Source of the DNA: an uncultured Verrucomicrobiota bacterium
GTDB taxonomy: Bacteria > Verrucomicrobiota > Verrucomicrobiia > Opitutales > Seribacteraceae
Length of the DNA stretch: 43,596 nt
Assembly: GCA_902612125.1 (NCBI GenBank)
Contig: CACMBV010000018.1
Span: forward strand, 1 to 43,596
Direction of reading: 5' to 3'
The notes beneath the pieces were generated by a model. That model was not told the origin of the DNA and searched no databases. It worked only from the letters and a program-made list of their open reading frames with translations. Numbering within the stretch: position 1 is the stretch's first letter; each line of letters starts with the position of its first letter. Positions 9,772 to 41,091 of the stretch are shown here, piece by piece. Both the position numbers and the translations under genes were made by a program.

Positions 9772-10908
9772 GTGATTTACGAAGTTCAAACTTTCGAGCC
9801 TGGGGAATTGATTCTGAAGGAAGGAGAGATTGGCAAAGGTTTTTGTATTTTAGAAGAAGGAGAGCTTCAAGTCATTCGTGGAGATAAAATCCTGAATGAG
9901 ATTACTTCCCGTGGTTCCATGTTTGGTGAGTTGAGTGAGTTGCTAATGTATAAGCGGGATGCCTCGATTCGTGCGAAAACCAAGGCCTCAGTCAAATTTT
10001 TCAATATCAGCCTGCCGGAATTTGTGGAACAAAATCCCAAATTTGCAGTTAAGATTATCCGAAATCTTGGACGTAGACTAATACGCATGAATGAAATAGC
10101 GATGGAGGGAGATGCCCGGAATAACATCCTTAAATCTGTCAATGATTCCGGAGAATCCTCGGTCAAAGATCAGGTCACTCGGTTACTGATAGTGGAAGAA
10201 AAGCAGGCAATTTTTGAGCAACTAAGGGAGAGTTTATCTAAGACAGGGTGGGTTCTCGATTGGGTCTCTTCGGAAGATGAGGCGGTCACAATCTGTGATA
10301 AGGAGTACTTTTCTGCAATCATTGTTAGTTGTTCCCTTCCCGACAATGGAGCGATTGATTTGAAGAGGAAACTGAAAACAAATCCCATGTCTGCCAAAAC
10401 CCCGGTTGCCGGCCTTTTGACCAAAGGGGATGATCGAGCCAAGAATGACGCAACTGCTGTTGGATACTCCGCTTTTATCTCCAAGCCAATTGAGAAAAAT
10501 AAAGCACTTAACACTTTATATGAGATGCTTAACTTGGATTTCTCTGATCAATATTTTAATCTTCTCGAAGGTGCCCTTTACTTTAGGGTTCCAGCCACCT
10601 TGAATGAAGAGCTTTTAGCTCAGATTAATCGTAGTTTTCCACGAAGAATAAGTGCGGCAATTAACGATGGTGTCGATAAAATGGTAGTGGATGTATCCCA
10701 ACTATCCGAAGTTTGGGCAGAGTCCATTCAATTGGTAACAGATTTGGCCGAGCATTTGGAACAAATTGAAAATCCTTTTAAAACCGCGTTTGTAGCCGAG
10801 GGGGAAGACTCCTCTAATTGGAACAAGTTGGATGGCTGTGAGAATTGGGTAGTTTGTGAGTCGGTAAAGTTAGCAGTCGAAAATTTAACCAAGTCTGAAT
10901 CAAGCTAA
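9772..10908 (+). CDS. cNMP-binding-like, pseudo-receiver and STAS-like signalling protein (copy 1)
   Basis: A 378-residue cytoplasmic protein with three domains. Residues 1-112 are a cyclic-nucleotide-binding fold (FEPGELILKEGE, IGKGFCILEEGEL, FGELSEL, then R62-D-A-S-I). The conserved Arg of the phosphate cassette is kept, but the following Ser/Thr is Asp. Residues 136-256 are a receiver fold (LLIVEEKQ; ISKPI with K238) whose phospho-acceptor position is Ser186 in IIVSCSLPD. Residues 257-378 resemble a STAS domain (MVVDVSQLSEVWAESIQLV and a C-terminal helix). GTG start at 9772 with GTAGGAAAA about 12 bases upstream. Its paralogue follows after 77 bases. Probably a ligand-sensing adaptor acting by protein contacts; no DNA-binding domain is seen, so it is not a CRP-type regulator. 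Confidence 0.8.
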   Translation: MIYEVQTFEPGELILKEGEIGKGFCILEEGELQVIRGDKILNEITSRGSMFGELSELLMYKRDASIRAKTKASVKFFNISLPEFVEQNPKFAVKIIRNLGRRLIRMNEIAMEGDARNNILKSVNDSGESSVKDQVTRLLIVEEKQAIFEQLRESLSKTGWVLDWVSSEDEAVTICDKEYFSAIIVSCSLPDNGAIDLKRKLKTNPMSAKTPVAGLLTKGDDRAKNDATAVGYSAFISKPIEKNKALNTLYEMLNLDFSDQYFNLLEGALYFRVPATLNEELLAQINRSFPRRISAAINDGVDKMVVDVSQLSEVWAESIQLVTDLAEHLEQIENPFKTAFVAEGEDSSNWNKLDGCENWVVCESVKLAVENLTKSESS

Positions 10909-10985: not shown

Positions 10986-12107
10986 ATGATATTCGAAACA
11001 CTACATTACAATCCCGGTGATTTTATTCTTCGAGAGGGAGATATTGGCAAAGGATTTTATATTCTGGAACAGGGAGAATTGGAAGTTACTCGAGAAGAAA
11101 GGGTGATTAATGAGATCACTTTACCGGGAGCCATGTTTGGGGAGTTGAGTGAGTTGCTTTGTCACAAGAGGGATGCCTCAATCCGTGCAAAGACAGGGGT
11201 AGTAGTGAAGTACTTTGATATGGAGCTTAGTCAGTTTGTTGAGGAAAATCCCAAGTTTGCCGTCAAAATTATTAGGAACTTAGGCCGGCGTTTATGCCGC
11301 ATGAATGCGGTCGCGATTCAGGGTAATACCCGTAATGATTTTCTAAAAAATATTTCAAGTTTAAATGACGCAGAGGAGTCTGATAGAAAGATTCGGATTT
11401 TAGTTGTGGATGATAAGCCGATGATCATTGAGCAGATCAAAGACTTCGCGAAAGATCCAGGCTGGATCATTGAAGGTGCGGCTGATATTGATTCAGCGAT
11501 CTCTCTTTCCGAGTCCTATGATTTTAACACTTACATCATTAGCTGTTCTTTGTCTGATGATGGTGCTGTGGAGTTGAGGCGTAAGCTCAAGACCAATCCA
11601 AAGTCATCAACGGCTCCAGTTGTGGGTATGCTGGTTAAAGGAGATGACTTAGCGATGAGAAAAGCCACCGAAGCCGGGTTTTCTCATTTTATTTCAAAAC
11701 CTTTTGAAAGGAACAAAGTAACATCCACGATGTATGAAGTCCTAAATCTTGATGCTTCCGATCAATATTTTGATCTTGAGGAAAATATCCTCTTTTTTAG
11801 AGTTCCTAAAATTATTACTCAGGAACTTTTTGAGGATATTAAAAGCAGTTACTCCTCCCGTATTCGCACTACCATTAATGATGGGATTGAAAATGTGGTG
11901 ATGGATCTATCAGCAATTGAAGAAGTCGGGGAGGATTCGGTTGAATTGGTCGGTGAGTTTGCTGAGTTAATTGAGGAAATGGGAAGTCCATTCAAGTTGG
12001 GATTTGTGATAACGGGGGAAGATTCAGAAATGTGGCGTAACCTTGACGGCTGTGAAGAGGCGGAGATTTTTGAATCTGTCGCGGAAGCTCAGCAAAAGCT
12101 CTCCTAG
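10986..12107 (+). CDS. cNMP-binding-like, pseudo-receiver and STAS-like signalling protein (copy 2)
   Basis: A 373-residue paralogue of the preceding protein that aligns with it almost without gaps, so all domain boundaries are the same. The cNMP-like cassette reads FGELSELLCHKRDASIRAKT. The receiver has the acidic pair (VVDDKP, D142-D143) and the Lys (ISKPF, K238), but again Ser186 at the Asp position (YIISCSLSDDG). The STAS-like part reads NVVMDLSAIEEVGEDSVELV and ends in an amphipathic helix IFESVAEAQQKL. Copy 1 has EE where copy 2 keeps DD, so copy 1 is further from a working receiver. ATG start at 10986 without a clear ribosome site. It ends two bases before the convergent gene at 12110. 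Confidence 0.8.
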   Translation: MIFETLHYNPGDFILREGDIGKGFYILEQGELEVTREERVINEITLPGAMFGELSELLCHKRDASIRAKTGVVVKYFDMELSQFVEENPKFAVKIIRNLGRRLCRMNAVAIQGNTRNDFLKNISSLNDAEESDRKIRILVVDDKPMIIEQIKDFAKDPGWIIEGAADIDSAISLSESYDFNTYIISCSLSDDGAVELRRKLKTNPKSSTAPVVGMLVKGDDLAMRKATEAGFSHFISKPFERNKVTSTMYEVLNLDASDQYFDLEENILFFRVPKIITQELFEDIKSSYSSRIRTTINDGIENVVMDLSAIEEVGEDSVELVGEFAELIEEMGSPFKLGFVITGEDSEMWRNLDGCEEAEIFESVAEAQQKLS

Positions 12108-33408: not shown

Positions 33409-36400
33409 TTAAAATCCAAGGTTGTAGACAGCCTGAACCTCGGAATCGGTAAGCGTACGGTTGTAAATTCTTAAGTCATCCATCAAGCCATTGAAGTAGG
33501 CCGTGCCATCTGGGGTTCTTCCGATATGAAGAATCGAACCAGTGTTATTGTTTGTACCATCTATGAAATTGCTTTGATCGCGATTTCCATTGATGAAGAT
33601 TTTCATATAACCCCAGCTGTTATTACTATGTTGTCTCGCAGCACTAAGATGAGTCCAGGATCCATAGTTGACGCTAGTATTCGAGGTTCTTCTACAGCGA
33701 TTGGACGTACCTGACCAAAGTCTGAATTTGCCCGTTGCGAGCATCAAGGCATGAGTATCCAATGGACCAGCGACCAAGCCAATGGGGCCATTCCAATTTG
33801 TGGCAGTAGCATTTCCATCGTTGCTGGTGGTCTTGATCCAAAGACAAACCGTAAAGTTGGAACCTAGAGTAGCCGGAACAGTTGAATAGTCATTGACCCC
33901 GTCGAACCTAATAGCATTACCGATCTTGCCAGGTTCCCAACTACTTTGATTACCCTCAAAGCTAAGAAGAGTGGCGTAACGACCATTACCTGATACATCC
34001 ATGGCATATTGAGTACCGTTGGTTTCATCGAACGGGATGTGAGTAACAAGGGCATCCTGAAATGATAAGGTGGCGTTTGAATCGGAGGTATTATGTTCAA
34101 ACCCGTAGCTACTGAAGGTAGAGCTTTTCAATCCGCGGTCATAAATAGATTTAATTTCTTTGCCACCTAATATTCGGTTGTAAATATATAATTCATCCAT
34201 CAAGCCATTGAAGTAGGCCGTGCCATCTGGGGTTCTTCCGATATGAAGAATCGAACCAGTGTTATTGTTTGTACCATCTATGAAATTGCTTTGATCGCGA
34301 TTTCCATTGATGAAGATTTTCATATAACCCCAACTGTTATTACTATGTTCTCTCGCAGCACTAAGATGAGTCCAGGATCCATAGTTGACGCTAGTATTCG
34401 AGGTTCTTCTACAGCGATTGGACGTACCTGACCAAAGTCTGAATTTGCCCGTTGCGAGCATCAAGGCATGAGTATCCAATGGACCAGCGACCAAGCCAAT
34501 GGGGCCATTCCAATTTGTGGCAGTAGCATTTCCATCGTTGCTGGTGGTCTTGATCCAAAGACAAACCGTAAAGTTGGAACCTAGAGTAGCCGGAACAGTT
34601 GAATAGTCATTGACCCCGTCGAACCTAATAGCATTACCGATCTTGCCAGGTTCCCAAATACTTTGATTACCCTCAAAGCCAAGAAGAGTGGCGTAACGAC
34701 CATTACCTGATACGTCCATGGCATACTGAGTACCATTGGTTTCATCGAACGGAATATAAGCAAGTAAACCATTTTGAAGGGCAAGGGTCATGGCCGTTTC
34801 GTTAACATCCTGAGGGGAAGAACCGGATATGATTTCCTCGAGGTCTGTTTCCCCATCTCCGTCCGAATCGGGATTGTTTAAGTTTGTTCCAGCAAATAAT
34901 TCCCGAGGGTCATTAAGTCCGTCCCCGTCCTGATCACATAACACTTGGATTTCAGAAGTTGTAAGCGAGCGTGAGTAAATCCGCAAGTCGTCCATTTTGC
35001 CGGCGTATCTGGACCCATTATCATCAGAAACGAAAAGATTTACACCTTGTCGCAAGGTAACATGGCTAGTCGAACCAGCAGTTGCAGGCTTGGCCACACC
35101 GTCAACAAGAATCTGATAGGAATTGGTTCCGCCATTCCAGCGAAATGCTAAATGTACCCAATCACTCGAGACCAAGTTTCCGGTGCTGGAGGATTGAGCG
35201 AAAGTGGAGGTATTTTGATCAACCATTAGACCAACGGACCCGAGAGGATCATTCAGTCTAATGCGGCTCATGGTGCCCACATTAATAAACGGACGCACGC
35301 CAGTTCCAGGATCCGGTTGCAACCATACAGCAAGAGTTTTCACCTCTCCATCGATTACAGGTGTCATAATTTGATCATTGGTTCCATCAAAGTGAAGAGC
35401 TGTCCCTATGGCTCCAGGCACCCATGCTGCGGACTCATCCATATTGAATAGGGTGGCATGCCTGCGGTTTCCAGAAACATCATGGGCTAGTGTGCCTACG
35501 CCTTCGTCAAAAGTCCAATGCCCGATAAGTCCCAACTCTGGCATCTCGGCAGGAGGAACTCCAACCGCTTGTCGAAGCGTGAGAGGATTGCTGGTTGCTT
35601 GACCCATAGAATTACTGACCAATAAGGCATAAGTGGCGTTGTCATCAAAAACCGGATTGCTAAGCTCAAGTACAGGAGCATTTGTGCCTGCAATAGGCTG
35701 TCCATTCTTGAGCCATTGATAGATAAGGTTGTGCCCTCTAGCGAGTGCCTCAATTCGAGCGGTTTGAGTAAGAGGGTCGTAACGGGCAAAGGTCTGGGTA
35801 GAAATTGCAGGGGAAATTTGCAGGGCAGATAGGACTTCTGGCGATAGGCGATCCAAAGTGATCGAGGCGTTGAGGTCACTTAAAATATCGTTTCCAAGGT
35901 TGCTCTTGGTAATCGTCCTGTTCAGATCGGAAAGCACGGAATCTGGAAGCATGTCTCGGGTGATATTTTTAAGCGAAGAATTAAGATCCGAGCGGAGGGC
36001 ATTGCTGAGCAAGGAGTGATCAATCGATCCTGGAGCAATGGGTGCACTTCCTGCGGAAAAGGCATAGGGCACTGATGCAAAGGGACGATCGGGGCTGAAT
36101 TGTTCGAAACCATTCACTCCGTCATTGAACCAGACCCGAAGCCGAAGGTTGGGGTGTTGTTGAAAGATCGAGGGATCTATCGCACCCATGCCCGGTATTG
36201 CGGAATTGCCCAGCAAGATGGAATACAAACCACCATTAACCGGAACCTGAATTGACCCTTCTGGTTCCAGACCGCCTACGCTTGTTCCGTCATTACTCCA
36301 GTAGGTGACTTTGCCATTAGCATCGACGAGGGCGAATTTGAACTGTCCAGTGCCTTCAAAGGATTCCCCGTTGACTGCGACCTGTCCGGCATAATTCAGG

Positions 36401-36471
36401 ACAGGCGGTACGGCTTTCGCCCCTTGAATGAGCATAGCAAATAGGCAAAAGAATATCGATAAAGAACGCAT
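33409..36471 (-). CDS. Large exported LamG-domain protein with internal duplication
   Basis: A 1020-residue secreted protein. From ATG 36471 it has a signal peptide (MRSLSIFFCLFAMLIQGAKA), then a conserved N-terminal module found in Verrucomicrobia (VLNYAGQVAVNG...YAFSAG), a low-complexity helical stretch (about 150-235), one Ig-like domain (YQWLKNGQPIAGTNAP), a first LamG/concanavalin-like domain (GLIGHWTFDEGVGTLAHDVS to DDLRIYSRSL), thrombospondin-3-like Ca loops (DQDGDGLNDP; DSDGDGETDLEE), and two further, nearly identical LamG domains. The repeated LamG pattern suggests binding of surface carbohydrates or proteins. An upstream in-frame ATG at 36492 would put residues before the signal peptide and is less likely. 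Single-gene unit; no sorting tail is seen. Confidence 0.85.
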   Translation of the reverse strand: MRSLSIFFCLFAMLIQGAKAVPPVLNYAGQVAVNGESFEGTGQFKFALVDANGKVTYWSNDGTSVGGLEPEGSIQVPVNGGLYSILLGNSAIPGMGAIDPSIFQQHPNLRLRVWFNDGVNGFEQFSPDRPFASVPYAFSAGSAPIAPGSIDHSLLSNALRSDLNSSLKNITRDMLPDSVLSDLNRTITKSNLGNDILSDLNASITLDRLSPEVLSALQISPAISTQTFARYDPLTQTARIEALARGHNLIYQWLKNGQPIAGTNAPVLELSNPVFDDNATYALLVSNSMGQATSNPLTLRQAVGVPPAEMPELGLIGHWTFDEGVGTLAHDVSGNRRHATLFNMDESAAWVPGAIGTALHFDGTNDQIMTPVIDGEVKTLAVWLQPDPGTGVRPFINVGTMSRIRLNDPLGSVGLMVDQNTSTFAQSSSTGNLVSSDWVHLAFRWNGGTNSYQILVDGVAKPATAGSTSHVTLRQGVNLFVSDDNGSRYAGKMDDLRIYSRSLTTSEIQVLCDQDGDGLNDPRELFAGTNLNNPDSDGDGETDLEEIISGSSPQDVNETAMTLALQNGLLAYIPFDETNGTQYAMDVSGNGRYATLLGFEGNQSIWEPGKIGNAIRFDGVNDYSTVPATLGSNFTVCLWIKTTSNDGNATATNWNGPIGLVAGPLDTHALMLATGKFRLWSGTSNRCRRTSNTSVNYGSWTHLSAAREHSNNSWGYMKIFINGNRDQSNFIDGTNNNTGSILHIGRTPDGTAYFNGLMDELYIYNRILGGKEIKSIYDRGLKSSTFSSYGFEHNTSDSNATLSFQDALVTHIPFDETNGTQYAMDVSGNGRYATLLSFEGNQSSWEPGKIGNAIRFDGVNDYSTVPATLGSNFTVCLWIKTTSNDGNATATNWNGPIGLVAGPLDTHALMLATGKFRLWSGTSNRCRRTSNTSVNYGSWTHLSAARQHSNNSWGYMKIFINGNRDQSNFIDGTNNNTGSILHIGRTPDGTAYFNGLMDDLRIYNRTLTDSEVQAVYNLGF
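33476..34035 (-). repeat. Near-identical LamG-coding repeat, copy A (3' copy)
   Basis: This 560-base block matches 34193-34752 with 7 mismatches and no gaps by direct reading (about 98.7% identity). The offset is 717 bases (239 codons). It encodes the last LamG domain of the surface protein. Flanking bases diverge quickly. Confidence 0.95.
34193..34752 (-). repeat. Near-identical LamG-coding repeat, copy B (5' copy)
   Basis: Partner of 33476-34035. The differences include three that alter residues (Glu/Gln, Ile/Ser, Gly/Ser), and several are third-position changes. The low divergence points to recent duplication or gene conversion inside the gene. Confidence 0.95.
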
Positions 36472-36547
36472 GAATATACGAACATTGTACAATGATGTGG
36501 GGCTGTCAATTATTCAGGAAGAAGAGGCTTGAATTATATTTGGGCCT

Positions 36548-37110: not shown

Positions 37111-37953
37111 ATGAATGAGGGAAAAAATTCTCCCCTGATTGATCCAAATAGTTTTCCCAATTGGATTATTTATGAGGATGAGCACATTCTGGTACTGGAT
37201 AAACCGGGTTGGCTGGTCTGTCATCCATCGAAGAATGGGCCATGGTCCAGTCTGGTGGGAGTGGCAAAAGAGTATCTTGGGGTGAAATCGATTCATTTGG
37301 TCAGTCGTTTAGACCGGGAAACAAGCGGGGTCGTTCTGTTGGCCAAACACCGTGGGGCAGCCAGTCGATGGCAAAAGGGTATTGAGAAAAAGACGGTTAG
37401 GCGCAGCTACCTGACCATCCTGGAGGGAGAAATGGATGATTCCCGGGTAGTTTCCGCTTTCTTGGGTAAAGATCCGACGAGCGATGTCTTTGTGAAACAG
37501 AGGATAACTAAAAACTCCCATAAATCTCAACGGGCAGAGACAGGATTCATACCCTTGGAGGTGAGGGATGGATATACCTTTGCCCTGGTGCTAACAAAAA
37601 CGGGTCGTAAGCATCAAATCCGGGTGCATGCCCAATCGATTGGTTATCCGTTGGTCGGTGAAAAATTGTATGGGCGGGATGAGACTTATTATCTCCGTTT
37701 CTGTGAAGGAGGATGGAAAAATGAGTGGATCGAAGCTCTGGGTATGAGCAGGCAGGCACTCCATGGCAGGAGTCTTGGCTTTATTGCTGAGGATGCCAAG
37801 TATAGAGCTGATTTAGCGGTGGATATGAGAGATTTTCTTATCAAAAAAATGGAGCTTTCGGAAGTGGACATAAATGCGATTCAAGTGAAGGGCGATGAAA
37901 CGGCCCAAAAGCAATGGATGGAGGAATTGAGTTGTGCGGATGCAGGAGAGTAA
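37111..37953 (+). CDS. RluA-family pseudouridine synthase
   Basis: A 280-residue RluA-type enzyme that isomerises uridine in rRNA or tRNA. It has the opening strand IYEDEHILVLDKPGWLVCHP, the catalytic motif S-R-L-D-R-E-T-S-G (Asp in LVSRLDRETSGVVLLAKH), KTVRRSYLTILEGEM, and the C-terminal RKHQIRVHAQSIGYPLVG followed by KLYGRDE. No S4 domain is seen N-terminally, unlike RluD. The target base cannot be assigned. ATG start at 37111, divergent from hpf; two further plus-strand genes follow with gaps of 24 and 92 bases. Confidence 0.92.
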   Translation: MNEGKNSPLIDPNSFPNWIIYEDEHILVLDKPGWLVCHPSKNGPWSSLVGVAKEYLGVKSIHLVSRLDRETSGVVLLAKHRGAASRWQKGIEKKTVRRSYLTILEGEMDDSRVVSAFLGKDPTSDVFVKQRITKNSHKSQRAETGFIPLEVRDGYTFALVLTKTGRKHQIRVHAQSIGYPLVGEKLYGRDETYYLRFCEGGWKNEWIEALGMSRQALHGRSLGFIAEDAKYRADLAVDMRDFLIKKMELSEVDINAIQVKGDETAQKQWMEELSCADAGE

Positions 37954-37977: not shown

Positions 37978-38484
37978 ATGAGTCCCCCAAGTACACCTGT
38001 TTCTCCCTTAGAGGCACTGAAGGCCGGATTTCGCCGTGCCTGTGTGCGTCGTTTGGTGGGAGACGAGGATGGGGCGATCGATGTTCTTAAGAATGAGATT
38101 CCCAAGTTGGTGGTGGGCTGGGCTAAGACCACGAGCCTCGATGCAGCTGAGAAGAAAGGAAAGCTTAAGGAGATGTTCGATGATGAGTCGGGCAGGGCGG
38201 ATGAGCTGGCGACTGCTTTCGATTTATTTGCCGGCCGTTTTGAGGCGAGGGTGGCCGAATTGGTGCGGAATGAATTGGGAGATGTCACAAACAGGCTTGA
38301 GCAGATTGTGGAAGCGATGACTGGAGGTAAACCTGTAGAGCCCCAAGCTCAGGAGTCTGAGGATGGGACGGAAGGGAAGCCCGAGAAAGCACAAGTGGCA
38401 GCGGAACTGGACCCTCCCAAAGGAATCGGTTTGCGCTTTGATGAGATTGAGGAAATGATCGACAAAGTGCTCTCAGACGACTGA
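37978..38484 (+). CDS. Acidic helical protein upstream of MamK-like actin, unknown
   Basis: A 168-residue soluble protein, not recognised. Residues 10-110 are predicted helical (LEALKAGFRRACVRRLVGDE; LATAFDLFAGRFEARVAELV; NELGDVTNRLEQIVEAM). Residues 115-148 form an acidic, Pro/Glu-rich flexible linker. The C terminus ends in a separate amphipathic helix (GLRFDEIEEMIDKVLSDD). Such a layout (folded core, tether, short terminal helix) is typical of adaptors that bind a polymer or partner. ATG start at 37978, 24 bases after the pseudouridine synthase and 92 before the actin-like gene. A role with the actin is inferred from gene order only. Confidence 0.65.
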   Translation: MSPPSTPVSPLEALKAGFRRACVRRLVGDEDGAIDVLKNEIPKLVVGWAKTTSLDAAEKKGKLKEMFDDESGRADELATAFDLFAGRFEARVAELVRNELGDVTNRLEQIVEAMTGGKPVEPQAQESEDGTEGKPEKAQVAAELDPPKGIGLRFDEIEEMIDKVLSDD

Positions 38485-38576
38485 TTTGCAGAAGTCTTTT
38501 TTTCACATTTACATTCTTGGTTTGACTTGCTGGTTTTTTTCTCAAATTTCAGGTTTTGCTTAAACCAAATTTGACT

Positions 38577-39701
38577 ATGTCCTCAGACCCTGCACAAGCT
38601 AGCCTTGATAATCCAGAAGAGATTTCTTCCAATGATGATAAAAAGAGGAAGATGTATATTGGGCTTGATTTAGGTACCCTCAATTCGTGCATCCTTCCCA
38701 AACTTAGTAAGCCAGGAACGGAAGAGCATCATGGAATATGGGTTCCAACGGTGGTTGGCTACCCGGAGGATGGAATCCTTGCAGGTATCCTACCAGGAAA
38801 TTCCTCCATGCTTCATGGTGATGAAGCTTTGGCAAATGAATTGCATTTACGTTTGGTAAATCCCCTCAATGACGGCGTAATTGCTGATCAGGAGGCTGCC
38901 CAGTCTTTTCTGAAATACCTACGCGGCAAAGTGGATCCTGAGTTCAAGCGGGAAGTATATTGCGTAATTGGGATTCCGGCGGTCGCGGATGCCGAAGCCA
39001 AGGAAAATTTAAAAAATGCTGCCAAGGATGCCTTTGATGGAATTCTTTTTATCCCCGAACCCTTTTTGGCCGCACTTGGGATGCGTGATGAGGAAAGACT
39101 GACGGACTCATCTTACAGCGATCCAGTGGCTAATTCTCTTTTTGTTGATATTGGAGCCGGTACCACTGACTTTTGTATCGTGCAGGGTTATTTCCCCAAG
39201 CCCGAAGACTTATTAAGCATTCCATTCGCAGGGAACGAAGTGGATGTGGTTCTCGATAAGGGGATTCGGGAAGAATATCCGGAAGTTGATGTTCCCATAT
39301 CCATGATTCGTAAGTTCAAGGAGAGCTATTCCTATGTGGGTGAAAGTGAATCTGGGGCCCGGGTTAAAGTTCCAGTAGATGGCAAACCGCGTAAAATTGA
39401 AATTGGCAAGCAGGTGGGTCTTGCTTGCAATCAATTACTTGGTGAAATTTTCGACTCCATCAAAGAAGTTATTTCAAAAGCTTCTCCGCAGTCTGTCTTT
39501 GATATGCTTCAAAATATTGTGCTTACGGGTGGAGGAAGCCGGATACGTAATATCGATCAGGAATTACAGCGTTTATTAGTGGATGATGGCTATGAAGAGC
39601 CCGATGTAAGGATTTCATCCCGGGAAGTGATGCCTTTTGTGGGAATTGGTGCCCTGAAGGTAGCCAAGGCTGCTCGGGAAGATCAGTGGATAAAACCCTA
39701 G
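38577..39701 (+). CDS. MamK-like bacterial actin
   Basis: A 374-residue actin-superfamily ATPase (ATG 38577; an in-frame TTG at 38556 would add seven residues). After a 25-residue acidic disordered tail come phosphate-1 loop YIGLDLGTLNS (27-37), VVGYPED, GDEAL, NPLNDGVI, IGIPA (131-135), the catalytic-Glu strand IPEPFLAALG (E161), phosphate-2 loop DIGAGTTDF (191-199), KESYSYVG and the adenosine loop NIVLTGGGSRI (313-323). Order and spacing of VVGxP, GDEAL, P-x-x-DGVI, SEPF-like and N-I-V-x-x-GGGSRI match MamK of magnetotactic bacteria better than MreB or DnaK as I remember them. Likely forms cytoplasmic filaments. No other magnetosome genes are in the window. Confidence 0.8.
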   Translation: MSSDPAQASLDNPEEISSNDDKKRKMYIGLDLGTLNSCILPKLSKPGTEEHHGIWVPTVVGYPEDGILAGILPGNSSMLHGDEALANELHLRLVNPLNDGVIADQEAAQSFLKYLRGKVDPEFKREVYCVIGIPAVADAEAKENLKNAAKDAFDGILFIPEPFLAALGMRDEERLTDSSYSDPVANSLFVDIGAGTTDFCIVQGYFPKPEDLLSIPFAGNEVDVVLDKGIREEYPEVDVPISMIRKFKESYSYVGESESGARVKVPVDGKPRKIEIGKQVGLACNQLLGEIFDSIKEVISKASPQSVFDMLQNIVLTGGGSRIRNIDQELQRLLVDDGYEEPDVRISSREVMPFVGIGALKVAKAAREDQWIKP

Positions 39702-39734: not shown

Positions 39735-40631
39735 TTAAATAATTGTCTGAAGGGTTTGGCTTAATCGTTCAACTGAGGAAATGATCCGATTATTAATTTC
39801 TTCGATATTTTCTTGATCAATATCACCAAAAAGAATCTTCCACCCTTCGATAGATTTTAAGTCCTCTTCATGAATATGGGGAAGTTTTTCTATTCCTTTA
39901 ATGTTTAAGGTGCGTACAAGAAATTCGGCCACTTGGACGGAGGCGGAAAGAGCAGGGTTATGACTCGCTTTCTCTGGATGATGATGGCAATGGACTGCTT
40001 CCACAATTTCTTCAGAAATATGGTGATTCCATAAATAATAGGCTCCGATTTTAGCGTGATCCCATCCGACTAGGTTCTTTTCTTTACTAGTTAGTTCCTG
40101 CAGGGAATGATGGGAGCTTCCATAAACTTGATGAAAGTTTTCAGGGAAAGTGATGGCTAAGATTAGTATGCCCAGATTATGTAGTAAGCCTGAAACATAG
40201 TCCGCTTCCTGTTCTACTTTATTTTCCGAGATAGATAAGATTTCACGGGTGAGAATGGCCGTCCCAATGCTGTGTCTCCAGAAACTTTCCCATGAAAAAT
40301 GGGTATTCTTTTTTCCGAGCTCTGAAATTTCTTCAATAATCGGGGTTGCGGCAAGGAGTTCACGTATACGATTAAGTCCAAGAAAAATCGAAGCTTCTTC
40401 GACTCCTGTAATATGATGTTCTTCCTTACTCCCAAAAAAAATTGAATTAACTAGATCCAACACGCGGGTGGTGAGGGATGGGTCGAGGCGGATTACTTCA
40501 GCAATCTGTCCTACAAAACTATCCTCCGAATCCAGTAAATTTGCCAATGTATCGTTAATACTTTGCAGCGATGCAAGTTTTGGGCATTGGTTGATCCTCT
40601 CGATTAGTAAAAAATCAGAAGGAGGATTCAT
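39735..40631 (-). CDS. HDOD domain signalling protein
   Basis: A 298-residue HDOD protein, a degenerate relative of HD-GYP phosphodiesterases used in bacterial signalling. Typical parts are EVIRLDPSLTTRVLDLVNSIFFG, EEASIFLGLNRIRELL, WESFWRHSIGTAILTREIL, DYVSGLLHNLGILILA, DHAKIGAYYLWNHHI and EAVHCHHHPEKA. Where active HD enzymes have H-D, it reads H-N (GLLHNLG), so catalysis is unlikely and a protein-binding role is expected. No other output domain is attached. ATG start at 40631, 55 bases after the small unknown gene; a 20-base palindrome lies 70-90 bases upstream. Confidence 0.9.
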   Translation of the reverse strand: MNPPSDFLLIERINQCPKLASLQSINDTLANLLDSEDSFVGQIAEVIRLDPSLTTRVLDLVNSIFFGSKEEHHITGVEEASIFLGLNRIRELLAATPIIEEISELGKKNTHFSWESFWRHSIGTAILTREILSISENKVEQEADYVSGLLHNLGILILAITFPENFHQVYGSSHHSLQELTSKEKNLVGWDHAKIGAYYLWNHHISEEIVEAVHCHHHPEKASHNPALSASVQVAEFLVRTLNIKGIEKLPHIHEEDLKSIEGWKILFGDIDQENIEEINNRIISSVERLSQTLQTII

Positions 40632-40686: not shown

Positions 40687-41091
40687 TTACACCTTTAATT
40701 CAACCGTGTTGACACGGTTGGTGGAAAGATGCACTTGGTCTTGGATACAAAGTTCAAAGAATTTTTTGGCAGTGGCGTAAGCCACTGATCCATGACTAAG
40801 AATCAGGCTTTGACCATTTGAAGAGAGTATTTTCATGGAACCATCGGCTCTCTCTTCCAAATAGAGTGTATCCCCTGAGTTCTTGTCAATGAATGACTTG
40901 ACGGCAGGTGATGTTATGAATTCTTTCTTTAATTCATCTCGGGAAAGAGACTTTTCGGCAGTTGAGACTTGCATTAATTCCTTGGAGAAAGATGTGGAAC
41001 TGGGTGAGGAAAGATTGGGACTTGATGTGATCACTCGGTTCAAAAGATTACTACCCATAGAAATTAAACTACTCGCAACGACTGGATTCAT
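40687..41091 (-). CDS. Small hypothetical protein between asd and HDOD gene
   Basis: A 134-residue protein, not recognised. The N-terminal 60 residues are Ser-rich and probably flexible (SSLISMGSNLLNRVITSSPN); the C-terminal half (SFIDKNSGDTLYLEERADGS, then MKILSSNGQSLILSHGSVAY and AKKFFELCIQDQVHL) looks like a small beta sheet with one helix. No signal peptide or membrane segment. ATG start at 41091, 39 bases after asd on the same strand, suggesting an asd, unknown, HDOD transcript. The palindrome at 40701-40720 lies in its last codons. Confidence 0.6.
   Translation of the reverse strand: MNPVVASSLISMGSNLLNRVITSSPNLSSPSSTSFSKELMQVSTAEKSLSRDELKKEFITSPAVKSFIDKNSGDTLYLEERADGSMKILSSNGQSLILSHGSVAYATAKKFFELCIQDQVHLSTNRVNTVELKV
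40701..40720. repeat. Perfect 20-base palindrome upstream of the HDOD gene
   Basis: CAACCGTGT (40701-40709) and ACACGGTTG (40712-40720) form a perfect 9-base inverted repeat with a 2-base spacer. It overlaps the end of the small hypothetical gene and sits 70-90 bases before the HDOD start. No T run follows on either strand, so it is more like a protein-binding site than a terminator. Confidence 0.7.

Follow-up and report, generated by a model that had tools for sequence, protein, structure and literature searches.

A BeeR-type actin of an uncultured Opitutales bacterium is encoded beside a conserved small gene, its putative filament partner

BeeR is a bacterial actin described in 2025 from Opitutus terrae (UniProt B1ZZL4, PDB 8r2n; Bergeron et al. 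2025, PNAS, PMC11929497). With ATP it forms a three-stranded tube, which was suggested to be a property of the whole BeeR family; it polymerises alone in vitro, carries a disordered N-terminal extension of 30-50 aa, and its function was given as unknown (PMC11929497). The paper also names a patent, and its main text makes no mention of a neighbouring or partner gene. Literature searches, with bioRxiv and patents outside their scope, found no further BeeR paper. For the crenactin system, the available sections of PMC5173319 describe arcadin-2, encoded in the crenactin cluster, as a core, a non-conserved linker and a conserved C-terminal helix, and report that this helix alone binds a hydrophobic groove of crenactin and depolymerises it; the same sections cite ParR as binding the hydrophobic groove of ParM. 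For the magnetosome actin MamK, mamJ lies immediately upstream of mamK and encodes an acidic connector whose ends interact and whose hypervariable, acidic middle is non-essential, according to the available part of PMC10653835; the connector role is also given in PMC9512821.

The window analysed here is the whole of a 43,596-nucleotide contig (CACMBV010000018.1), one contig of a 2.4 Mb assembly that is 64% complete. A first-pass annotation, made from the letters alone, had proposed a 374-residue MamK-like actin directly preceded by a small helical, acidic protein. Both open reading frames were recovered at this position (Table 1); a program-made list begins the actin 21 bases earlier, at a TTG. 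A scan of the 92-base gap between the two genes on the + strand returned no promoter-like or terminator-like match. Seven other window proteins were scanned against Pfam and the rest of the window was read by eye. The seven comprise an RluA-type pseudouridine synthase, an S30AE protein, an HDOD protein, a receiver protein, a LamG-type protein, a YkuD protein and a 134-aa protein without a match; none belongs to a magnetosome family, as had been claimed of the surroundings. The LamG-type protein (33409-36492, 1027 aa) has three LamG-type stretches and also two segments, each some 200 residues long, that look almost the same. The 134-aa protein (40687-41091) adjoins the HDOD gene, and its ORF cluster spans 28 loci of the window's own clade. 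Elsewhere in the window, two adjoining paralogues (9772-10908 and 10986-12107) look, from their translations, like proteins with cyclic-nucleotide-binding and receiver domains.

Table 1. Features of the actin locus in the window
Feature	Coordinates	Strand	Basis or remark
RluA-type pseudouridine synthase, 24 bases upstream of partner	37111..37953	+	Pfam
Partner gene, 168 aa, ATG start	37978..38484	+	without Pfam or NCBIfam family; directly upstream of BeeR in 66/70 loci
Partner N-terminal domain, ~aa 1-112, three predicted helices, the third of ~60 residues	37978..38313	+	alignment and L114 model
Partner linker, ~aa 113-150, of varying sequence and length, acidic in own clade	38314..38427	+	0 invariant columns; low pLDDT
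Partner C-terminal tail GLRFDEIEEMIDKVLSDD, aa 151-168, conserved putative amphipathic helix motif	38428..38481	+	9/56 invariant columns
Intergenic gap between partner and actin, 92 bases	38485..38576	+	sequence scan
BeeR-type actin, 374 aa from ATG	38577..39701	+	Pfam, NCBIfam, PDB sequence, tree, fold
Actin N-terminal extension, aa 1-26, before first strand	38577..38654	+	predicted disordered in relative L114, pLDDT <50 over most
HDOD-domain protein, convergent, downstream of actin	39735..40631	-	Pfam

The actin translation contains all five motifs on which the MamK assignment had been based (VVGYPED, GDEAL, NPLNDGVI, DIGAGTTD and NIVLTGGGSRI). Pfam assigned it to MreB_Mbl (7.6e-25) and Actin (3.3e-9). 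Among NCBIfam models, BeeR came first (1e-152, 508 bits against a cut-off of 530, NF053558), followed by MamK (4.4e-69, 233 bits against a cut-off of 400, NF040964) and MreB (1.9e-21, 76 bits), with FtsA and Hsp70 models far lower, at 27 bits or less. A search of PDB sequences gave the BeeR filament 8r2n as best match (E 2.8e-104, 352 bits), then MamK (1.8e-42, 149 bits) and MreB (7.6e-18, 68 bits). The order was the same by fold: in Foldseek, the model of a close relative (L114) matched 8r2n best, with a TM score of 0.91 normalised to the target and 47% identity, then MamK, then MreB. In a tree of 86 rows, from which FtsA and Hsp70 groups were left out, 13 MreB-type rows split from the other 73, the window and BeeR-type rows included, with support of 100/100. 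MamK is represented there by a single fragment row on a very long branch, and its placement is unsure. When the tree was reduced to 44 rows, a constraint keeping all 30 BeeR-type rows in one group came at no cost (p-AU 0.50), and a grouping of MamK with 12 rows of the window's clade was likewise not rejected (p-AU 0.20). The closest named relative, from AG-919-G08, is 98% identical, and the records of the nearest named relatives are titled Verrucomicrobia or Opitutia; two phage records, annotated as MreB, match at 26% identity. The genome also encodes a separate MreB-type copy (L002).

The BeeR cut-off of 530 bits is passed by 32 of the 74 BeeR genomes of the order, and by 3 of the 35 in the window's family. 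Since the window actin scores 508 bits and so few of its own family reach the threshold, we place it by sequence as a known kind of protein, BeeR-type, in a sister clade just below the equivalog as curated. Identity with MreB is ruled out by the position of the 13 MreB-type rows, and orthology with MamK by 233 bits against the cut-off of 400 together with the lack of magnetosome context among the scanned neighbours. The earlier reading as MamK-like rather than MreB holds: the protein stands apart from MreB in the tree and in the scores (233 against 76 bits). The nearest family, however, is BeeR. Its expectation that phylogeny would keep the protein out of the MreB, FtsA and Hsp70 groups was borne out by the tree for MreB and, for the two groups outside the tree, by the low model scores. 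A separate filament system in Verrucomicrobiota, as had been proposed, is not new in itself, because the filament family has already been published as BeeR.

We mapped the published cross-strand residues of the BeeR tube onto 72 BeeR-type proteins, 34 of them from the window's clade and 17 from the O. terrae clade. R242 and N246 are kept in no row of the window's clade, where they are replaced by E in 32 and 33 of 34 rows, whereas 16 of the 17 O. terrae-clade rows retain them. The C-terminal leucine, L385, is present in all 17 of the latter but lacks a counterpart in 33 of the 34 rows of the window's clade, and T307 has changed to K, E or Q in 32 of the 34. Q310 is kept in none of the listed rows of the window's clade, and the O. 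terrae clade, too, retains it in only 4 rows out of 17. In the 34 rows E149 is kept in 8 and R157 has become K in 17; E153 stays acidic (E or D) in 24, and positions 277/284 are still V/I and I/L. At two of the 12 published positions (252 and 380) the O. terrae translation used lacks the stated residue, so the numbering may be off there. The window actin has 26 aa before its first strand, compared with the published 30-50, and the corresponding stretch of the L114 model is of low confidence. In this alignment most published tube-interface residues are replaced in the window's clade, and the filament formed there may differ from the published tube. These substitutions question the three-stranded tube as a property of the whole family.

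The gene upstream of the actin was followed across 372 genomes of the order, 74 of which have BeeR at E <= 1e-60. We compared 73 BeeR loci, 72 fetched and the window (G606, a contig-end fragment, was left out); three (L118, L140, L143) are cut at a contig end, leaving 70 with upstream DNA. A partner-family gene lies directly upstream of BeeR on the same strand in 66 of the 70, so that linkage of the pair in other genomes, on which the first-pass reading depended, was found; no partner-family gene precedes BeeR in L080, L145, L147 and the masked L148. The 66 linked loci come from five families of the order, coded f1, f2, f3, f5 and f93. Two of the partners are incomplete: only the C-terminal part of L109 is on its contig, and the end of L146 is broken by Ns. 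One linked BeeR (L077, genome G099) is identical to 8r2n over 349 of 349 compared residues, and this locus is therefore that of O. terrae or a near twin. In a GTDB-based scan of 25 actin relatives, three of which (L015, L021, L027) lie on contigs too short to reach the partner position, the partner was directly upstream in 22 of 22 loci with sufficient contig; many records are the same, so the 22-locus and 70-locus counts are not independent.

Three clade profiles pick the 66 partners (46 of them profile seeds, 20 not) out of 3274 ORFs, with one other hit at E 0.02. The profiles detect each other's members, that of the window's clade matching nine f3b members at 5e-5 to 5e-7, and hhalign between clade profiles gave probabilities of 91 and 77 for two pairs and a weak value (9) for the third. 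Values of dN/dS for the window's partner were 0.19 against L128, 0.075 against L129 and 0.045 against L142, the last rough because dS is 2.4. The partner is a real coding gene under purifying selection. Its pI is 4.6 in the window but ranges from 4.2 to 10.2 in the family (64 partners, the incomplete L109 and L146 left out). The description of a small, helical, acidic protein therefore fits the window's clade, and acidity as a family trait is ruled out.

No Pfam or NCBIfam family was found in 51 partners: with a limit of E 0.1, any one model hit involves one or two members, the best (0.001) on members other than the first. Among the NCBIfam hits listed for these 51 at the same threshold there is no MamJ model, and none of the 51 has a DNA-binding or membrane family. 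With limits of E 1 for NCBIfam models and E 0.01 for plasmids, the window's own partner gave no match. Searches of PDB gave no match for the partner by sequence (best E 0.24) and none better than E 1.0 by fold. As far as the literature was searched, both the conserved BeeR partner and the interface difference between clades appear undescribed.

At thresholds of E <= 1e-60 for BeeR and E <= 1e-4 for the partner, 70 of the 372 genomes have both genes, 4 BeeR alone, 5 the partner alone and 293 neither. Fisher's exact test on the table before one genome (G143) was rescued (69/5/5/293) gave p 1.5e-62, with related genomes counted as independent. The broad partner profile, A2, missed G143, which was found when all candidates were scored; the first-look filter may have missed others, so absence is not proven in each of the 293 double negatives. 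BeeR occurs without a detectable partner in G632 (a single contig, 99% complete), G395 and G397, and in G482, where it is cut at a contig end; the partner occurs alone in G445 (at a contig end), G470, G481, G310 and G646. Eight genera (g3, g7, g8, g10, g12, g15, g24 and g36) contain some sampled genomes with both genes and others in which neither passes these thresholds. Within genus g27, both genes are present in G223 and G289; G310 lacks BeeR and retains only a decayed partner, and G646 combines an intact partner with an internally deleted BeeR. The latter (L161, 5480-6265) reads as a single uninterrupted frame of about 262 aa without model positions 106-268, and may be a genuine short form or an assembly error. 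The pair is split between contigs in G394. The unlinked partner of L164 (4977-5495) lies downstream of a tRNA-dihydrouridine synthase-like gene, and BeeR in that genome follows an ffh-like gene (both names by reading).

In a sample of 387 genomes from across the phylum, A2 finds 20, of which 18 are members of the order and two (G195, G353) are weak partial matches outside it. The profile of the window's clade, A1, finds its own genome only, a failure of sensitivity since the broader A2 found 20 of the 387. BeeR-grade matches (E <1e-100) occur in 18 genomes of this sample, all within the order.

Partner proteins are built of a conserved N-terminal domain, a variable linker and a conserved tail. 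An alignment of 22 partners from the window's clade has 56 invariant columns, 47 of them in aa 10-93, none in the linker and 9 in the tail, for which the consensus of the 22 rows is GLRFDEIEEMIDEVL. Across clades, the tail follows the pattern [IVL]xx[MLF][IL][DE]x.. near the C-terminus and starts anywhere from residue 103 to residue 254. Of the 66 partners, 61 have a strict form of the motif and 65 a loose form; among the 3208 other ORFs at these loci, the strict form occurs in 3 and the loose form in 110. The pattern was derived from the same partners, so 61 of 66 holds by construction and it is the control that is informative. One degenerate DNA pattern of the motif occurs once in the window's whole assembly. 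Treated as helices, 65 tails have a median hydrophobic moment of 0.49, against 0.23 for shuffled sequences, and 35 of the 65 are individually more amphipathic than their shuffles at p <= 0.05. For the L114 partner, AlphaFold2 predicts helices at 10-26, 30-51 and 56-116 and a tail helix, with pLDDT >90 over most of the N-terminal domain and low values in the linker. When the L114 partner and BeeR were modelled as one read-through chain, the tail reached about 83, compared with about 87 for the partner alone (from a different alignment); being no more confident with BeeR in the chain, the tail receives no support for docking from AlphaFold2.

The N-terminal domain persists without BeeR in G470 and G481, which belong to one genus and have actin matches of MreB grade only. 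Their partner copies end without any tail motif. From these tail-less copies it is suggestive only that the tail follows BeeR, since the two genomes, from one genus, amount to one evolutionary event. N-domain-only relatives of the partner in genomes without BeeR (L159, 4956-5354; L160, 4932-5360) lie beside a coaBC-like gene.

Other neighbours of the pair differ between clades. The RluA-type gene adjoins the pair in 30 of 34 loci of the window's clade and elsewhere, among the loci searched, only in L162, from the same family; the HDOD gene adjoins it in 34 of 34 and at no other searched locus. Among the 52 ORF clusters that recur in five or more loci, no third gene keeps a constant place across clades. 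Five of the 52 join loci of the window's clade with others: BeeR, two clusters antisense to BeeR, a kinase-like cluster and a leuA/citramalate-synthase-like cluster. The kinase-like gene lies on the - strand about 5.4 kb downstream in 19 loci of the window's clade and mostly on the + strand at about 3.4 kb in 10 others, and the leuA/citramalate-synthase-like gene is found at differing distances in 14 and 2 loci. In one clade, the pair lies near pseudopilin-like genes and a response regulator in 8 to 9 loci (names by reading).

That the small gene belongs with the filament gene is well supported by these comparisons, and BeeR and its partner very probably work together. Co-transcription can preserve gene pairs, and the loci of the window's clade are close kin, but a pair of mere neighbours that persists through shared expression, with no working link, seems very unlikely: other neighbours change between clades while the pair stays, both genes are absent together within eight genera, and the unlinked partner still co-occurs with BeeR in G394. 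The BeeR-type actin and its dedicated partner probably form one conserved module, in which the partner would regulate the filament or couple it to something else. In our proposal the tail helix docks on BeeR, the likeliest site being the IA/IIA subdomain groove that arcadin-2 occupies on crenactin, and the N-terminal domain would dimerise or bind a second ligand, possibly by way of its long third helix; the partner would thereby control BeeR assembly and turnover, or couple the filament to something else. The inference that the tail is what holds BeeR, and that the partner regulates or connects it, draws on the tail following BeeR and on the parallels with arcadin-2, ParR and MamJ, and on these grounds we lean towards the tail as the BeeR-binding part. 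The partner is not needed for BeeR assembly, since O. terrae BeeR polymerises alone in vitro. It is a tentative further reading that BeeR is one half of a two-gene module whose partner grips the filament by its C-terminal helix, and that in the window's clade, where most published tube contacts are lost, the same module builds a different filament.

The regulator and adaptor roles are not separated here, and both are kept in our main reading; where the first-pass annotation had suggested the positioning of a cargo, control of depolymerisation or turnover is an equally open role. The partner could conceivably be an adaptor that tethers cargo, membrane or DNA to BeeR filaments, like MamJ on MamK or ParR on ParM. 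Like the partner, mamJ lies directly upstream of its actin gene, and the available part of PMC10653835 describes its product as acidic, with interacting ends and a variable acidic middle. A linker variable enough to move the start of the tail by so many residues would also suit a tether, but no neighbour holds a constant place beside the pair across clades, the 51 partners searched have no DNA-binding or membrane family, and acidity is not common to the partner family. With equal reserve, the partner can be pictured as a depolymeriser or sequesterer, its tail filling the groove needed by the D-loop of the next subunit and so setting the monomer pool, as for arcadin-2. The partner has the layout of arcadin-2, with a core, a non-conserved linker and a conserved helix at the C-terminus, and arcadin-2 likewise shares a cluster with its actin in the available sections of PMC5173319; a pure sequesterer, on the other hand, would not need so strongly conserved an N-terminal domain.

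Conservation of that domain in the window's clade, and its retention in G470 and G481 without BeeR or tail, would also fit an older job of its own, to which a BeeR-binding tail was added and BeeR recruited. We consider this unlikely: it draws on one genus, in which loss of the tail is as compatible as gain, and the phylum sample gives members of the order and only two weak partial matches outside it. The C-terminal peptide of FtsZ is bound by FtsA, itself an actin homologue, and the partner tail might mimic that peptide and bind FtsA rather than BeeR. There is a loose likeness between the end of the genome's own FtsZ (..DLDVPAYLRRGVKIAI) and tails such as IADFIDDML (L086), but we hold this idea to be scarcely credible, as the FtsZ peptide is basic where the partner tail is acidic and the tail tracks BeeR; to our knowledge FtsA and FtsZ are not restricted to BeeR genomes and would be expected beyond them. 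The FtsZ in question, on contig 25 of the same assembly (L165), scores 230 bits, under the TIGR00065 cut-off of 295. Our preferred reading, a BeeR-type actin with a dedicated partner that regulates or couples it, bears on a solved filament that has no known function: a partner at 66 of 70 loci, that of the solved protein included, gives a direct test.

Set against known systems, the window actin shares with MreB a Pfam MreB_Mbl match, but its own genome has a separate MreB-type copy and the tree splits the two at 100/100. ParR is a plasmid-partition adaptor that binds DNA, whereas the present pair lies on long chromosomal contigs and the window's partner has no plasmid match or DNA-binding family. 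The proposed likeness to ParM and ParR is that of an adaptor on the hydrophobic groove of an actin, a feature of ParR cited in the available sections of PMC5173319. MamK (PDB 5ljv/5jyg) is the second-best family and fold for the window actin, and mamJ, in the available account, parallels the partner in lying upstream; unlike in that system, the actin falls short of the MamK cut-off (233 bits, with 400 required), the scanned neighbours include no magnetosome family, and the partner is without an NCBIfam model. Crenactin and arcadin-2 are archaeal and involve another actin family, and the likeness is one of layout, taken from the available description of arcadin-2: a partner in the actin's cluster with a core, a variable linker and a conserved C-terminal helix. 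BeeR itself differs from the window actin in the score of 508 bits against 530, in the changes at R242, N246 and L385 and in the 26-aa length of the N-terminal stretch. It is alike in being closest in sequence, in its actin fold, in its phylum and in having an extra N-terminal stretch, and the gene identical to 8r2n also has a partner-family gene upstream.
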